From contig JAQXCD010000022.1 of NCBI GenBank assembly GCA_029252045.1, positions 1-64,000 on the forward strand: a stretch of 64,000 nt of DNA, in the 5' to 3' direction. Below are positions 17,462 to 29,793 of the stretch, piece after piece. Under the pieces are notes generated by a model. It did not search any database. It was not told the DNA's origin and worked only from the letters and a program-made list of their open reading frames with translations. Each line of letters begins with the position of its first letter. Positions within the stretch are counted from its first letter, which is position 1. Made by a program: the position numbers and the translations under genes. The stretch is from Sulfitobacter sp. Lineage in GTDB: Bacteria > Pseudomonadota > Alphaproteobacteria > Rhodobacterales > Rhodobacteraceae.

Positions 17462-18277
17462 TTGCGGCGATGGATTGCTCTAACCGTTATTGGACTGCTG
17501 CTCACCTCGGGGGCGGTGGCCCAAGATGCGTCGCTTAAGCGTCTCAATAATGGCGATGAAGCCAAAGCATGGGAAGCTGTTGGCCGTCTGGATATTGACG
17601 GCAAGGGCTTTTGTACTGGTGCGCTGATAGCGCCCAAGCTGGTGCTGACGGCGGCGCATTGAATGTTTGACAGTACTACAGGAAAGCGAATCGAAGAGGG
17701 CCATGTCGAGTTTCTGGCGGGCTGGCGAAATGGGCGTGCGGGTGCATACCGTGACGTTCTGCGTGTCGTTGTTCATCCCGACTTTGTCTATAACGAAACC
17801 CTTTCATCAGATCGCGTGCGCAACGATCTAGCGTTGTTGGAGCTGGAACAGCCGATCCGCAATAATTCGATCAAGCCTTTCAAAACTGCGGCCCGTCCGC
17901 GCGCGGGTGACCGCGTAGGCGTGGTCAGCTACGCACTTGATCGCTCCGAAGCCCCGTCTTTGCAGGATGTGTGTGAAGTTTTGGCGCGTCAGGACGGCGT
18001 TCTTGTGACGTCCTGCTCGGTTGATTTCGGGTCCAGTGGCGCGCCGATTTTTGTGATTGAGGACGGTGAGGCGCAGATTGTTTCAGTTGTGTTTGCCAAA
18101 GCCGAGGTGCGCGGCGACGAAGTATCGCTTGGCACGGCGCTGGGCCAACCGCTTGCTGAATTGCAGGCCGAACTGGTAGCGGGCCGCGCAATCTATCTGG
18201 GTGCCAAGCAAGGCGAACGGCGCATTCGTGCAGGCGACAATAAGACCCAGACCGGGGCCAAGTTTGTCCGGCCTTAG
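17462..18277 (+). pseudogene. trypsin-like serine protease with in-frame TGA after LTAAH
   Basis: GFCTGALIAPKLVLTAAH-[TGA 17660-17662]-MFDSTTGKRIEEGHVEFLAGWRNG..DLALLELEQPI..SCSVDFGSSGAPIF; both parts in the same frame. Confidence 0.85.
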
Positions 18278-18944: not shown

Positions 18945-19015
18945 GCGTTGTTGGAGTCACCAAATGTAAACCTGTCACGGGCATCTTCTGCATCATCACA
19001 ATGCGGGAGAATTCG

Positions 19016-19756
19016 ATGAGCTTTTGGTCTTGGCTATGCGGCGCGATATGTGGCCTATTCACGGCAACCACCCTCTACGCGGGTGCCATCACTTTGTTGG
19101 ATGTAGGCAGCAAGCCGCGTAGTGCTCTCATCCCCGTTATAGCGCCTGCGCCGGAGGTTCGGACAACCCCGCTCGCCCCATCCAGCCTGTTTATTGGCCG
19201 CACCGGCAGCAGCCTGTTTCCCGAGATAGAAAAGGTTGAGCCGGTGAAGGCGACAGCGGGTGTGTCCGGCATGTCCAGCCGGGCTGTGTTAGTCATTCGT
19301 GACATCATCCAGTAGGCGGAATCCAGTCGCGCAGGTTATGACGCGGTGCAACATGGTGCAAAGATTGCGCCGCCGCGCCTGCCCACCCAGATGACCGTAG
19401 CCGAGATTTATGTATGGATTGACGCGACGCCGAACCAGCCACATGCCATCGGGCGTTATCAGTTTATTCCGTCCACCCTGCGGCGTGTCATGCGCACTGT
19501 GGGTGCCTCTCCAGACCAGCGATTTTCACCGGAGCTGCAAGATAGGCTGGCCGATGTTCTGCTGGCAGAAGCGGGGTATCACGAAGCCAAGCGGGGTGAG
19601 GTGAGCAGACGCGCCTTTATGAATAACCTTGCCAAGATTTGGGCCGGTTTGCCGAATGACACAGGCCGGTCACACTATGACAGCTATGCGGGTAACAAGG
19701 CCAGTATGACATGGGCGCGGTTTGATGCGCAAATGGCGCAAGTGTTTGGGCAGTAA
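19016..19756 (+). pseudogene. lysozyme-like/transglycosylase-like protein with in-frame TAG
   Basis: SRAVLVIRDIIQ-[TAG 19313-19315]-AESSRAGYDAVQHGAKIAPPRLPTQMTVAEIYVWIDATPNQPHAIGRYQFIPSTLRRV; continuous frame across the stop. Confidence 0.75.
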
Positions 19757-22366: not shown

Positions 22367-23444
22367 ATGGCTAATCTTGATGCGCAGGTACGCGAATCTC
22401 AGGCACAAGTTGCCGAAGCGCAGGGCAAAATTGCCGAGCTGACCAGCCGGATCGAGACGGCACGCGCAAAAAATCAACGCGGGGGAAGTGTCCGATATTG
22501 ATATCGAGAACGCCTCACTTGAGGATGTTCACGCGCACACCGAGGTAATGAACGCCAATATTGCAGAGCTGATTATGGGGCTGGATGATGTCACGGCCGG
22601 TTTCAGCCGCGACTTTGACGAAATGCGCTCCAAGACAGGCTGGGAGAGCATGATTGGCATCTTCTTCTCCGCCAAGGCAGACAGCATGCGTCAGGAACGG
22701 GTGCGCAGCGCCAGCATTGACGATAGGTTGCAGGACCTGATTGCGAAATCGGACACTATTGTGAAGCTGCTGGAAGGCCAACTGGCAGTTCTGGAAGAGC
22801 AGAAGACCAAGGTTGAGGGTAACCTGACCGAGACGCTTAGCGACCGCGAGGCGACCGTGGCCGAGCTTGAAAGCCTGCGCACAGATATCGGAAACATGGA
22901 CCCGGAGATCATCAAGCTGGAGAATGCCATCGCGTCCGAGATGGATGCGGCCAAGCGGACTGCGCTGGAAAGCCAGCCGGCGGCAGCGAACGCCCGCTAC
23001 AACGCCATGGTGCAGGACGAGCAGGTCAAACTGGCCAAGAGCCAGACGCTGGAGCGCTACATCGACAAGGGCAAAACCTGGGTGGACAGCTTGCAGAACC
23101 AAGCGGCCACGCAAATGGTGCTGATCAACAAGCTACAAACCGATACCAAGCAGCGTGTGGTGCTGTATGACGCGCTAACCAAATCGTTGAAAACCGCGCA
23201 ACAACAGGACGTAGCCCACCGCATCAACGAGATCGGTGTAAAGACGGACCAAGAGGCGCAATCCGCCATGGCTGGCATCGGTGCCGCCACCAACGCGCGG
23301 ATGGCCGAGATGATGGAAGCCCACGAGGATCACATGGTCTTTGCCCGCGACGTTCTGGAGCAAAAGGCGAAGGCCGACGAGCGGTTTGCGCGGCGGTTTG
23401 CCAAGATTATCGAGAAGCATGATAGCAATGCGTATGGGGAATGA
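22367..23444 (+). pseudogene. long coiled-coil protein, first gene of the AAA+ operon; apparent +1 frameshift in A6 tract
   Basis: MANLDAQVRESQAQVAEAQGKIAELTSRIETARAK continues as INAGEVSDIDIENASLEDVH.. in ORF 22488-23444 only if one A of 22468-22473 is removed. Confidence 0.75.
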
Positions 23445-23564
23445 GCCAGCGCAGCAGGTGCCTGATCCCGCGCCTGCTGTTAAGTCTCGGCGGTTGTTCA
23501 AGGTTGCAATGTTGACAGAAGCGGCAGTTGTACTTGGCCGCGATTTATCGGGTCTGGTCGTTAG

Positions 23565-24683
23565 ATGACGAACCCCAACGTCGATCACTACGACCTGAAG
23601 GACACCTTCGCCAGCCGCCGGTATTTTACCAAGTTCAGCGGCATAATGCAGCATATGCTGCGTGTGGCCGGCGTGATGGAGGCCGAGGGCCAGTTGAACC
23701 GTGACGAAGTCACGATCCTCACCCGTTACGCGGCCAGCCTCACCCACACTTTCCGCGCCCTGAGTTGGAAGTATCTGCTCGTAGGCCGCGAGACGGGCCG
23801 CTTTTTCGGGTCACTCACCATTGACGGGCATGACAGCGGGTTTCCCGTGGCCGAAGAGCTGATGAGCATGGCAAATGATGCGCATCAGGCGCACAGCCAC
23901 CTGTCTTCGATGCCGTCTGTGGATGCGCTGAAAGACAAGATGGTGTCGAGTATCCTCAGTGATCGCAGCATCCCTACAAAGCTCCAGTTTAGTCTCTCGC
24001 AAAGGCTCTATTACGAGGAATTGTTGAAGGGCGACATGTTCTGGGTGCGCAATGATGCGCAGGCCGAATGGTTGGGCGATGTCGGTAAACGCCGCAAATA
24101 CAGGCTGCATTGGGCGACCTATGACAGTCAGGTGAACCTGCCCGTGATCTACATGATGGAGGTCGAGGATTCGGGCCGCGAAGCGTTGCCCGTTGACGCG
24201 CGCCGCTGGCTGGAGGTGCAGTCGCATCTGAGCGCGCAGGCGCTGGGCGGGCTGAAACTGGTCACGATCGCACGCGGCTTTGATGAGGATTTTGCGGATC
24301 TGCATCCTTAACGCCTGCGCCGTTTCCACCTTGGGCCGATGTACAGCCATGCCTACACTCACCAAAACGGCCCTCTGCGCGATGTTCTGGCCGAGGCAAA
24401 AGCCCCCGAGGGCCAAGACTGGGCCATGGTCTGGACCGAGGAAGAGCTGCTGTCAGACCGTGTGATTGAAGAAAAAGAAGGCTGGTTTTCGACGGTCGAG
24501 CGGCAGATTTTTGCGCTGGACCCGATGGGCAATCAACTGCCCGATATGGGTGCCACGCGCACTGTCCGAAGCATCATTTTACCCCAGCGTCCCTATCAGG
24601 TGCTGGAAGAGCATAACCCGCCGGGTTTTATGGGGGTACGGAAGTTTGTTGTGAGCAGCGCGGGACGGGTGCTGCAATATTGA
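23565..24683 (+). pseudogene. conserved-looking unknown protein, split by in-frame TAA
   Basis: ORFs 23565-24311 and 24339-24683 share a frame; ..GFDEDFADLHP-[TAA]-RLRRFHLGPMYSHAYTHQNGPLRD..; no SD before ATG 24339. Confidence 0.65.
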
Positions 24684-24767
24684 GCGGCAGTGCGGATGAG
24701 CCTGCGGGATTGAGCATATATGGCCAAATAAGATAGAGGCCGGAGCGCATTTTAAGGAGAGATCGGG

Positions 24768-26702
24768 ATGAGCCAGACGTGAGACCAGATGGAGCTTCGC
24801 GAGGAAGATATCGCCAAACATATCGCTATTGCACAATCGTTGATCGAAGGGTTTGACCACGCGCCGCGCATTGGCAAGGTGTCTGATGCACCTGCGGAGG
24901 AGCGGTCCTCCGGTATCGGTACGCGGCGGCGGTTCCGCTCGACCACGCTTGGGTTGGTGACGCAGCGGCGGGTGGCATCGGGTGCCGTGCAATTGATTGC
25001 ACGCGTCGAGGCGGCGGATGGTGATGATGCGCTGATGTCACCGTTGCAGGCGACTGTGCTGCATGTGATCCGGCGCGCGCTGGCGATAGCCTTGGCCGTG
25101 GCCGAGAATTTTGCGGACCAGTCTGGTTTGGCGGATCTGAAACGTGCCAACCTTGAAGCGGCTTTGCTCCCCGCGCGTAAAGCCGAGTTTGGCGAGTTGC
25201 TGGCCGCTGATGCGTTGGTGACGCTCCATGTGTTCGGCAATGCCACGGCCTATCTGCTGTCCTCGCATCTGACCGAAGTGACGGTTGAGGTGGGTGACGT
25301 CGAGGAGGTGCTGACCGACATTGGCCAGACGGCGCTGCATGGCGCATTGTGGGAGCTGGATCAGGACATTGCCGCCCACGCCAGTGACGACCATCGGCTG
25401 GTGGCCACCGTTGCCGCCTTTGCCGAGGCATTGATGGAGAAGGTGGCCTTGAGGGCTACAACAGCCCCACGTCTGGAAGCCTTCAGCGCCGCCGCGTGGC
25501 ATGTGGAGGCGGATGATTTCACCGTGCGCGGGTTCAGCCCTGCGTCCAAGGCGAAGTCGACCAAGCTGACCATGACGTTAAAGAAACCCAACGAAGTGGT
25601 CGGAAACCACATCGCGAAATATCAGTCCATGAAGCTGGCGAAAATGCTGATGGCTTATGACTTTGAGCGTCGTCTGAACCCCTTTGCCGAAATGGGCGGG
25701 TTCATCTTTACCTTTATGGGTGACGGAGCACCGGGCACGGGCAAGACGACGCTGATCCAGATGATGGCGGGGTTGATCTCGGAATACTGCGGGCATGCGG
25801 GCTATCCCTTCCGCTATCAGAACCTGAGCACCGATAATATTGACAGTTATCAGGGCAAATCGGGCCAGAACGCCAAGGCGTTTATCAACAACATCATTGA
25901 TCCATCTGTGATCGGCTTTGGGACGATCGACGACATCGACCAGCTTGCAGGCAAACGCGGGGACCGTCAGTCCAGCGCGGGGCAACTGGAAATTACCGCC
26001 GTGTTGATGGAGAGTTTTGCGGGCGCCAATACCGTTGTGCGCGGGAACTGTACGTTCGGGATGTTCTCCAACTATCCCGAAAACGTCGATGATGCGCTGC
26101 GCCAGCGGGCTGGTGCGCGGTTTCTGGTGGACGGGCCGCAGACGCGGGAGGATTACGTTGATATCCTCTATCTGCTGATGGGCAAGAACCACTCGATCCC
26201 GCTGGGCGATCACGAAGTGTTCGAAGCGCAGGCGATCAAAAAGGCGGTTGCCGCCAGCTTTGAAGGCCACTCCCGCCCGCATGAGGCGGGGCTGATCACC
26301 GTCTATGACGCCGTGCAGGAGAAGATCGGCGCGCTGGATACAATCAACAAGTTAGGGACGTATCTGAAAGCGATTCAGGAGGCCGACCCGCGTTTCACCG
26401 GCCGTGCGATCAAGAACATCACCGATGCGGTCAAGGTCCGCGCGATGGATTTCGAACTGCCCGATGAATGGATGGAGCAGCCGGACCTGTTCCTGTTCAA
26501 ACCCTATGACGCCAAGAAAGCGATGATCGAGGATATGCGCCAGCCTATCACGGTGGAGATGGTGGTGCAGGAGATCAACCGCTATGCGGATTCAGAGTTC
26601 CGCTATGCGGATAAGTCGGATGAGGTGGCGATTGAGGGGATGGTGAGGGATATGGGGCGGAGCGTTGAGGCTAAGAAGCGGTATTTGGGAGGGGAGGAGT
26701 GA
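24768..26702 (+). CDS. AAA family ATPase; probable original start ATG 24768 followed by TGA at codon 5, downstream ATG 24789
   Basis: Walker A GDGAPGTGKTTLIQMM, Walker B-like FGTIDDIDQL, sensor-like GNCTFGMFSNYPENVDDALRQR; AAGGAGA SD lies before ATG 24768, not 24789. Confidence 0.85.
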
Positions 26703-27508
26703 AGAGTAAAATCAGAACATCGGGTGCAATATGGACGCGCGGCCCGTTTTGGTTCGGTGTTTTGCTTTCAATAATTGTTGTCGGCTTTGGATACTACAGT
26801 TTGATAAATTGGCCATTATGCGGTGAAATTGGACCATGCATGTCGAACTGGAATCAGCTGAGGTTTCGCTCAACGCCTAATGAGATTGGTGATATGCTAG
26901 CTGGCTTTGCAGGTGCACTTGCATTTATTTGGATCGTTGTGACTGTCTTGCTTCAAGCCGCAGAACTTAGAGAGCAAAGAGAGCAGTTTGAAAAGATGGC
27001 CGATGCTCAAGAAGATCAAGTGAAAATACTGGTAGAGCAGCGGAAGTTTTATGAGAGGGAAGAAAATTCTCGACGTGAAGCATCAGCACGCCTTCAAATC
27101 GATGTGCTTCTTCAAGGTATTTCCGATTTGATAGATTTAGAAGCGCGGTCATCTTCAATCATTAGCGAAGATGGGTGGCCGCAAGTCTTTGGTGACCGTG
27201 GTGCCGATACCGTGGATATTCACCTGTTTAAAAATAGAAATTCAGTGTGCTCATTCTTTTATCAACTTGATGGTGAAATAGTTAGACTTTCTCGGGCTAT
27301 CGAGCCGTATTTGATAATTCAGAGAAGATTAGAAGAAGTAGCTCAGCTTTTCGAAGTCTTTCCAGATGATCAGATTGCTAGACTAAGAAATATGGGGCTT
27401 TACGACTTGCAAACTGGCGTAAATTCGTTTGTCGAAGCAAATATCTGGGAACAGATTGCATCAGATCCGGCTAATCCAAACAATTTTATTAATGGAGGAA
27501 TAGCATGA
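26699..27508 (+). CDS. AT-rich membrane protein with coiled coil, AbiC-like architecture
   Basis: Two hydrophobic segments (FGVLLSIIVVGFGYYSL; DMLAGFAGALAFIWIVVTVLLQ) then AELREQREQFEKMADAQEDQVKILVEQ; GTGA and ATGA overlaps with neighbours; visibly AT-rich. Confidence 0.65.
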   Translation: MKSKIRTSGAIWTRGPFWFGVLLSIIVVGFGYYSLINWPLCGEIGPCMSNWNQLRFRSTPNEIGDMLAGFAGALAFIWIVVTVLLQAAELREQREQFEKMADAQEDQVKILVEQRKFYEREENSRREASARLQIDVLLQGISDLIDLEARSSSIISEDGWPQVFGDRGADTVDIHLFKNRNSVCSFFYQLDGEIVRLSRAIEPYLIIQRRLEEVAQLFEVFPDDQIARLRNMGLYDLQTGVNSFVEANIWEQIASDPANPNNFINGGIA

Positions 27509-28879
27509 ACCGCCTCATCCGCGCCGGCCTGATGTTCGGCAACCTCTTCCATGTCCATTCGCCGGCCTTGGTGGAACGCTATAACCGTGCGCTGCACCAT
27601 CTGACGGGCAAGCGCACCGCGCTCACCGATTTCTACATCGATCTCTCCGGCTACTCGCCCGAAGTGGGCGACGAGCTGGACGACCCCCTCTACCTCAACC
27701 ACAAAGGCGTGAACCGGCAGTTTATCTTGCTCAGTGTGGAGCAGCGCACGGCGCCGTTGCTGAGCGTGAAATTCTCGACCTCCAAGACCATCCTGCAAAA
27801 GTTCATCGCCGAAAACGAGGCGGCGCTGTTTGCGTTGACTGCCAAGGATGCGGTGGCGGGGGAGTTGGTGAACTCGGTCTATGATGTGTCCCAGCCGAAA
27901 CGTCTGTTCGACATCCGCCGTATCACAATCGACGCCGACACCACGGGCGGCACGGTCAAAGACGCCGCCAAGCTGGCCGAGATGGTCGACCGCTTCCGCG
28001 ATTCCGAGAGTGGCTGGTATGACGACGTGCTCATCGCCGAAATGATCGGCCTTGCGGGCAAGACGGGCGATGTGGTGCGCAATCCCGTCAAACTCAAGGT
28101 CATGAGTTTCGAGCAGCGCAATTTTTGGACGGCGCATTTTGGCGGCCTTTATGTGTTTCAGGACGTGGAGCACCCCGCCGTCATCGCGCCTGCGGGCAAG
28201 GACGGGCTGGACGATTTGCCGCTTAAACACGTTTACGACGCGACCCAACGCAACCAGATTGCGCATTTCTTCCAGCTGAACGGGTTGACCCAGACGATAC
28301 TGGAGGCGCGCGGCATCAAGTCCGCCGCCATTCTACGGCAGAAGATGGATTTCATCCTGATTGATGCGGTGGCTGGGCAGGAGGGTGTGGAGTTGACGGG
28401 CCTAACCCGCGCCGACCTGCGCCGCCTTGCGCGGCAGCACGCCGACCACCTGCCGCCCGAATTCCACACGCTGGGGCAATTGGTGAACTGGGCCGAGAAT
28501 GGCGGCGCTTTCCCCAACATCGACAGTGCCGATCCTGTCTATTTCTACACGTTGCGCGCGGCGGATACGTCTGACGCGCCACTGGTGAATATGCTGCTGG
28601 CCCAGCTGGCGCCCAAGGACATCCGCCAGCTGTTCATCTGCCACAAAGACCTGTTTTACACGACCTACGCTGGCTGGCCCGATGCCAAACGCGCCTATGT
28701 TACCGATTTTCTCGAACGCGAGTATCAGGTGGACAAGGCCGGCGTGCGTGACGCACATGTTTGGTCATGCGCCCGCAGTTCAGGTGCCACCCCTGCCGCG
28801 CAAAGGCAAAAAACCGCCCCCCGTTCCGGACCGCATCGCGGCTGTCGGGCCGTGGGGCGCCGTGACGTGGAGGAAATAG
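27505..28879 (+). pseudogene. large unknown protein (DUF6638-like, from memory), +1 frameshift near 28.75 kb
   Basis: MNRLIRAGLMFGNLFHVHSPALVERYN..FLEREYQVDKAGV then frame 2 HMFGHAPAVQVPPLPRKGKKPPPVPDRIAAVGPWGAVTWRK* ending 3 nt before the next ATG. Confidence 0.7.
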
Positions 28880-28882
28880 GAT

Positions 28883-29149
28883 ATGGCCGCACTTGCCCGC
28901 CTGATAGTTATAGGGTTCATCGTCCTGTCGGTGATCTATGTCTGCCTGTCGCTCTATTCCCGCGCTGTCCGCAAGGGCAAGCTGCGCCGCGAATGGCACG
29001 AGGGGCCGCAGGACCAGTCGCTGGACGCCTTTATGGATGAGGGGCTGGAGGACTATGACAAGTCGTTGCGCCGTAAATTGATCCTGTCGGTCTATGTTAT
29101 TCCGGTGATCCTTGTGTCAGTGGTTGTCTATCTTACAAATTTCGCCTGA
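28883..29149 (+). CDS. small membrane protein
   Basis: LARLIVIGFIVLSVIYVCLSLYSRAVRKGKLRREW and C-terminal LILSVYVIPVILVSVVVYLTNF. Confidence 0.65.
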   Translation: MAALARLIVIGFIVLSVIYVCLSLYSRAVRKGKLRREWHEGPQDQSLDAFMDEGLEDYDKSLRRKLILSVYVIPVILVSVVVYLTNFA

Positions 29150-29160
29150 GAGGGTTTTAC

Positions 29161-29793
29161 ATGCTGGGTCTTATCCGTTGGACATTCTGGATCACTGTTT
29201 GGGTGCTGATGGCTGCGGTGTTTCATTATACGCTGCCGCAAGTCGATATCGTCCGCATCACGGACACCTACGAGAAGCGGATTGATCCGGGCGAGAACAA
29301 GCTGTTCTGGGCGCAGGCGGACATCGGGACAGATGGCACTGTGGTCAACCGCGATGTGTTCTTCATCCAGACGCGCCGCGCCAAAGGTGACGTGATGGTA
29401 TACCGGAACGAGGATACCGGCTGGAGCTGGCCACCGTACTTCAAGTTCGACACGTCGAACCTGCAAGCCGAGGCCGGAGATCTTAAATCATCAGAAGCCG
29501 CGCCGCGCTATGCCGCGATCAAACATTACGGCTGGCGGAATGAATTCCTGACAATCTTCCCGAACGCGATTTCCATTCGTCCGGTCGAGGGTCCCGATGC
29601 GGCCAAAGGCATTCCTTGGGTCAATATCGTGATCCTCACTTTGTTCGCGGCTGTGGTCTACGGCATCTGGGTCCGTTGGCGCCGCTTTCGTATGGCTCGC
29701 CTTGATCCGACGTTAGAGGCGATAGAAGATGACTTCGCCGAAAAGTCGGATGCGGTCAGCCGCTGGTTCGGTACATGGCGCAAGAAAAAGTAG
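29161..29793 (+). CDS. DUF1523-family membrane protein
   Basis: LPQVDIVRITDTYEKRIDPGENKLFWAQADIGTDG..VNRDVFFIQT resembles DUF1523. Confidence 0.75.
   Translation: MLGLIRWTFWITVWVLMAAVFHYTLPQVDIVRITDTYEKRIDPGENKLFWAQADIGTDGTVVNRDVFFIQTRRAKGDVMVYRNEDTGWSWPPYFKFDTSNLQAEAGDLKSSEAAPRYAAIKHYGWRNEFLTIFPNAISIRPVEGPDAAKGIPWVNIVILTLFAAVVYGIWVRWRRFRMARLDPTLEAIEDDFAEKSDAVSRWFGTWRKKK

Follow-up and report, generated by a model that had tools for sequence, protein, structure and literature searches.

A four-gene AAA+ module inherited or lost as a block in Rhodobacteraceae, with a hypervariable gene slot inside its operon

The genes analyzed here form a cluster in a 64,000-nucleotide stretch of Sulfitobacter sp. 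DNA (hereafter the window; GenBank assembly GCA_029252045.1, contig JAQXCD010000022.1, positions 1 to 64,000), which is the start of contig 22 in a source assembly of 3.08 Mb, 68 contigs and 90% completeness. The cluster occupies positions 22367-29793, entirely on the + strand, and begins with the gene of a coiled-coil protein (cc, 22367..23444; 358 amino acids (aa) in relatives, the long open reading frame (ORF) of the window starting at 22488), followed by those of a soluble protein without family (unkB, 23565..24683; 372-373 aa in relatives) and of an AAA+ ATPase whose N-terminal domain is helical (AAA, 24768..26702, the start being placed by comparison with relatives), in which PF00004 was detected (E=2e-11, ORF 24789-26702). 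The fourth component is a DUF6638 protein (27505..28879), which matched PF20343 with E=4e-209 and 695 bits, against a curated cut-off of 27 (ORF 27505-29040). Between the AAA and DUF6638 genes, and sharing 4-bp overlaps (GTGA/ATGA) with them, lies a gene (26699..27508) encoding a 269-aa protein with two transmembrane (TM) segments, a coil and a variable C-terminus. Downstream are the genes of a small two-TM protein (smTM, 28883..29149) and of a DUF1523 membrane protein (29161..29793; PF07509, E=1e-67). For the remaining cluster proteins of the window, family searches gave no convincing match.

Among 198 genomes of the order, DUF6638 was found in 114, as one copy per genome (fragmented in genome G123), and the profiles of cc and unkB recovered the same 114 genomes, also with one copy each, and none of the remaining 84; this count covers cc, unkB and DUF6638, the membership of AAA resting on its neighbourhood. 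The order and strand of cc-unkB-AAA-DUF6638-smTM-DUF1523 were constant in 60 out of 60 loci of relatives from more than 50 genera (one locus ended at a contig end), which greatly exceeds what chance would give. Computation shows that cc, unkB, AAA and DUF6638 are a soluble unit of fixed order, inherited or lost together in an all-or-none manner. In G123, fragments of cc, unkB and DUF6638 were present together, as if the module decayed as a block. Mean column identity of cc reached 84% (profile of 38 sequences).

DUF1523 and smTM were considered as module members and rejected, both being separable from the unit. DUF1523 occurred in 191 of the 198 genomes regardless of the presence of the unit, and in Sulfitobacter genomes without the module it stayed near the same downstream glycosyltransferase gene; at an empty site (L213), the upstream hydrolase gene abh was followed by DUF1523 ~110 bp later. 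The smTM gene adjoined the unit in all 60 loci, yet it was kept with DUF1523 in two genomes devoid of the unit (L210 and L211). The four soluble genes were found without DUF1523 on megaplasmids of Vibrio vulnificus and V. parahaemolyticus, followed by mfd, as well as on replicons of Sinorhizobium, Shinella and R. leguminosarum, where flanks were different, and smTM was absent beside these Vibrio and Rhizobiaceae modules. Two more alphaproteobacterial genomes carried the block adjoining DUF1523. Searches of the plasmid collection returned an identical set of ten records for unkB and for DUF6638; cc was found in all ten and, as a diverged lone copy, in one more. This lone copy (L220:9794-10867, R. 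leguminosarum pSK03) showed 26% identity, lacked a normally invariant stretch and was placed between thymidine kinase and DUF2333 genes, where Sinorhizobium carries the whole module; it is probably a module remnant.

An earlier note on this DNA, made from the sequence alone, had described consecutive same-strand genes at 22367-29793, an arrangement on which ORFs and sequence agree. Its component list (coiled coil, unknown protein at 23565-24683, AAA+ ATPase with GAPGTGKTT, ~458-aa protein, small TM protein and DUF1523) was borne out by ORFs, sequence and Pfam, and the linkage that it proposed, centred on a single AAA+ ATPase together with a coiled-coil protein, withstood the co-occurrence test (114/198 genomes, 60/60 loci). 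The note had also stated that no function was assigned to the combination, in agreement with a literature search that turned up no paper naming DUF6638 and none relevant to the combination or to the four-gene linkage. As for the system of six to eight genes that it envisaged, the cluster is real but the boundaries were wrong, the linked unit being cc, unkB, AAA and DUF6638, with DUF1523 and smTM separable and the TM and coil gene being cargo.

The gene at 26699-27508 of the window is variable cargo in a hypervariable slot. Across Rhodobacteraceae, the interval between AAA and DUF6638 ranged from 40 to 2,382 bp, with a median of about 690 (130 distinct loci), and relatives of the window gene were detected at this position in only 6 of 60 loci (tblastn). 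The mean GC content was 0.52 in the insert vs. 0.60 in AAA, and it was lower than in AAA in 101 of the 120 loci whose insert exceeds 150 bp. The insert was chiefly a same-strand ORF in 100 of these 120 loci; a slot ORF overlapped the AAA stop codon in 64 and ended ≤8 bp from the DUF6638 start in 82. Slot genes were usually single and often had a 4-bp overlap with both neighbours. No slot ORF was present in several Rhodobacteraceae loci, and the gap measured 8 to 48 bp in Shinella, R. leguminosarum, Vibrio and locus L180. The slot is used beyond Rhodobacteraceae too, since the junction in S. meliloti pSymB (L219:16399-18144) holds a DUF559 nuclease gene and the transposase of an insertion sequence (IS), ISRm16 (IS4-type). 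A promoter and terminator scan gave no signal above that of shuffled sequences.

The same junction is also a rearrangement breakpoint: at L113, L157 and L165, DUF6638 was not located after AAA but elsewhere in the same genome, cc and unkB being still upstream of AAA at L113 and L157. A second, smaller slot was observed between cc and unkB (e.g. L043, L060 and L070), often with small proteins of one or two TM segments.

The 142 slot proteins with a length of 90 aa or more (141 plus that of the window) fell into 52 sequence clusters, and most slot ORFs matched no family. Pfam families among the slot proteins were mainly of defence types (putAbiC, Mrr_cat, AbiJ_NTD4, DUF2971, DUF559, DUF3825 and HEPN), to which PADLOC added PDC-S02, PDC-S31, AbiP and type IV restriction models. 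A control with 131 flanking ORFs from the same loci yielded ordinary metabolic families, and PADLOC matches that looked mostly generic by name. The locus thus shares with defence-gene hotspots conserved flanks and variable content enriched in defence families. Matches to PHROGs were weak and generic only, with no sign of phage origin, and no relatives of cc or of the HEPN-type slot proteins were found in viral contigs. Four slot clusters (0, 3, 6 and 7) comprised small (~100 aa) multi-TM proteins without family match, present in the slot of many loci and often encoded directly before DUF6638.

Three slot families were searched in the 198 genomes, with models built from slot proteins, which favours the recovery of slot members. 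The HEPN-type family, with two RxxxxH-like motifs, was found five times, always in the slot (5/5). The 2TM/AbiC-type family, which includes the window gene (alignment A8), was found 23 times; 17 of these members, among them the 16 best matches, lay in the slot. The third family was found nine times, with five members in the slot and four elsewhere, three of the latter in genomes without the module. Residence in the slot is strongly preferred, not obligatory.

Turnover of the slot content was fast: a common slot family was found in 30 of 208 occupied species pairs with AAA ≥95% identical, and in 230 of 3,185 pairs at 75-80% identity. In the closest pairs, divergence at fourfold-degenerate sites was 0.14-0.19 nearest to the slot vs. 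0.4-0.6 elsewhere, the drop being about threefold in Ruegeria, and near-slot divergence was below that of far segments in 248 of 255 such pairs. A milder dip was observed around the cc/unkB slot. Codon constraint was judged an unlikely cause of the low synonymous divergence, since the profile was almost flat in distant pairs, where the dip was nearly gone; this pattern points to exchange of slot content between species by homologous recombination.

In comparison with Sulfitobacter relatives, all four module genes of the window carry a disruptive change. In cc, where the match was split, a +1 frameshift near the A-run at 22468-22473 makes the long ORF start at 22488; in unkB, a Lys codon was replaced by an in-frame TAA (24309-24311); in AAA, an early TGA (24780-24782) is followed by a possible restart at ATG 24789; and in DUF6638, a +1 shift near 28756, close to the gene end, leaves the last ~40 codons in another frame. 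Reading frames are open in the slot gene, in smTM and DUF1523 and in most of the flanking genes, and many relatives hold intact copies of the module, among them Ruegeria conchae TW15 (L141), the KLH11 isolate (L149) and Sulfitobacter mediterraneus DSM 12244 (L097). The module of the window may be decaying in its lineage, or the assembly may contain sequence errors. Two additional genes of the window (17462-18274 and 19001-19756) each appeared to have an in-frame stop with respect to Sulfitobacter relatives, suggesting either pseudogene accumulation or sequence errors in the source genome.

At the protein level, AAA combines a helical N-terminal domain, for which no relatives were detected, with a single classical AAA domain. 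Conservation from Rhodobacteraceae to Vibrio covers PGTGKT, GTIDDID, the sensor-1 region and the ALRQR..R arginines; the Walker B motif is DD, not DE. Against PDB sequences the protein gave weak matches across Vps4/fidgetin, i-AAA and proteasomal ATPases, a wider profile preferring the last two groups, and its structural model was poor (predicted local distance difference test, pLDDT, of 62), with no match below E=0.1 in the fold search. For unkB (L089 relative), AlphaFold2 gave a confident model (pLDDT 85.9); below E=0.5 this model had no match in PDB, and it had no convincing one in viral fold libraries. Profile searches of cc, unkB and DUF6638 against PDB stayed at noise level; cc had no family match, and none of the Pfam models of PspA or Snf7 matched it at E≤1. 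Its identification as TelA (PF05816) was rejected, with an hhalign probability of 0.6% and TelA being a separate gene of the same genome. That TelA gene, unrelated to cc, has conserved neighbours of its own (contig 55, 68000-82000; L201). None of the core genes matched a specific defence family: PADLOC gave no match for unkB or DUF6638, and a weak generic TRIP13 match for AAA.

The interpretation that we prefer, and to which we give an even chance of being correct, is that of a four-gene soluble AAA+ module, inherited or lost as a unit, with an operon that in addition accommodates a slot for exchangeable cargo. Judging from its anatomy, the AAA protein would form a ring that uses ATP to remodel or take apart an assembly based on cc, which is highly conserved, with unkB and DUF6638 as putative obligate partners or adaptors. 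The slot gene would be dispensable for the core activity, because intact modules without cargo exist. Slot genes may be mostly independent phage-defence or abortive-infection genes, expressed via the operon, and recombination in the conserved sequences of AAA and DUF6638 would carry them from one species to another. In line with this interpretation, a slot-type family is also present in module-less genomes, the unit has other flanks in Vibrio and Rhizobiaceae, and the site between abh and DUF1523 can be empty. Several observations weigh against it. The defence label of the slot depends on the minority of slot proteins that match families, and the near confinement of the HEPN-type and 2TM/AbiC-type families to the slot would fit a functional dependence on the core. 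Furthermore, the strong recombination signal comes nearly all from the Ruegeria group (28 loci), being weak in the group that contains Sulfitobacter, and the pairs compared are not independent. Finally, the tie of AAA to cc is suggested by anatomy, and the AAA model is poor.

The same confinement of families, together with the patchy, all-or-none distribution of the core and its loss as a block, favours a different organization, in which the whole operon would be a phage-defence system: the core would act as a conserved sensor and ATPase, an immune chassis, and the slot gene as an interchangeable effector (membrane or AbiC-type, HEPN ribonuclease, Mrr or DUF559 nuclease), with a logic analogous to effector swapping in CBASS (cyclic-oligonucleotide-based anti-phage signalling) or Lamassu. 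Species would swap effectors by homologous recombination and retain one activation machine. The translational coupling of defence-like slot genes fits this arrangement, but independent cargo is favoured by the modules that lack cargo, by the open slot gene beside four disrupted core genes in the window and by slot families in genomes without the module. In addition, the extreme conservation of cc and the constant place of the locus in Rhodobacteraceae are unlike typical mobile defence systems, and no core gene matches a specific defence family. We consider this arrangement, the main alternative, rather unlikely. The phage-defence module suggested by the earlier note is partly supported, by the defence-type genes carried in the slot and not by the four core genes. 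The note had also put forward a membrane-remodelling or membrane-stress machine of PspA/Vipp1 or ESCRT/Vps4 type, in which smTM and DUF1523 would be the membrane partners. Both genes are adjacent to the unit in 60/60 Rhodobacteraceae loci, and the AAA domain is weakly similar to Vps4/fidgetin; however, it matches proteasomal and i-AAA ATPases equally well, and family searches with cc gave no hit to PspA, Vipp1 or ESCRT-III models. The proposed membrane components are neighbours only, because they occur without the unit and the unit occurs without DUF1523, consisting of four soluble genes in Vibrio and Rhizobiaceae; such a machine is therefore improbable, and this part of the note is not supported. 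An equally small probability is given to a neutral or general insertion hotspot, in which defence annotations would be a small and biased sample of accessory genes. The IS element in the S. meliloti slot and the abundance of slot ORFs without family, many of them for small multi-TM proteins, would be expected from such a hotspot, but defence families dominate among the annotated slot proteins, while flanking ORFs of the same loci belong to ordinary metabolic families.

The interest of these findings lies in a four-gene AAA+ module that Rhodobacteraceae retain or lose as a block and that recurs in Rhizobiaceae and Vibrio. For three of its proteins no relationship to anything characterized could be detected, unkB being a confidently predicted fold without PDB match. 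The slot would constitute a natural experiment on the exchange of single defence genes among bacteria and, with most of its proteins matching no family, a place to look for undescribed defence genes. If the core did control the slot gene, the operon would represent a new form of modular immunity and a new proteobacterial immune chassis.

With respect to known systems, two of the four core proteins match Pfam families above curated cut-offs (DUF6638, PF20343; classical AAA, PF00004), whereas for cc and unkB neither a family nor a solved structure was matched. The AAA protein shares with Vps4/ESCRT, proteasomal and i-AAA ATPases a classical AAA domain and its Walker A, sensor and arginine motifs, but differs from them in its unrelated N-terminal domain, its DD Walker B, the absence of a subfamily preference and the lack of a detected ESCRT-III partner. 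The coiled-coil partner typical of PspA/Vipp1 or ESCRT-III/Vps4 was not recognized in cc (Pfam at E≤1, and noise in profile-to-PDB searches), and the CD-NTase and HORMA neighbours of CBASS with a TRIP13-like ATPase were not found by PADLOC, nor suggested by the unkB model, which had no PDB match. The window cargo shares its N-terminal two-TM and coil segment with slot proteins that end in putAbiC (PF16872), a domain present in three other slot proteins, but in contrast to AbiC-type proteins it has itself no putAbiC match in Pfam. Finally, the slot resembles defence-gene hotspots in its variable, low-GC, defence-type genes, conserved flanks, fast turnover and recombination signal, and differs from them in lying inside an operon and in usually holding a single gene in a single orientation, which often overlaps both neighbours by 4 bp.

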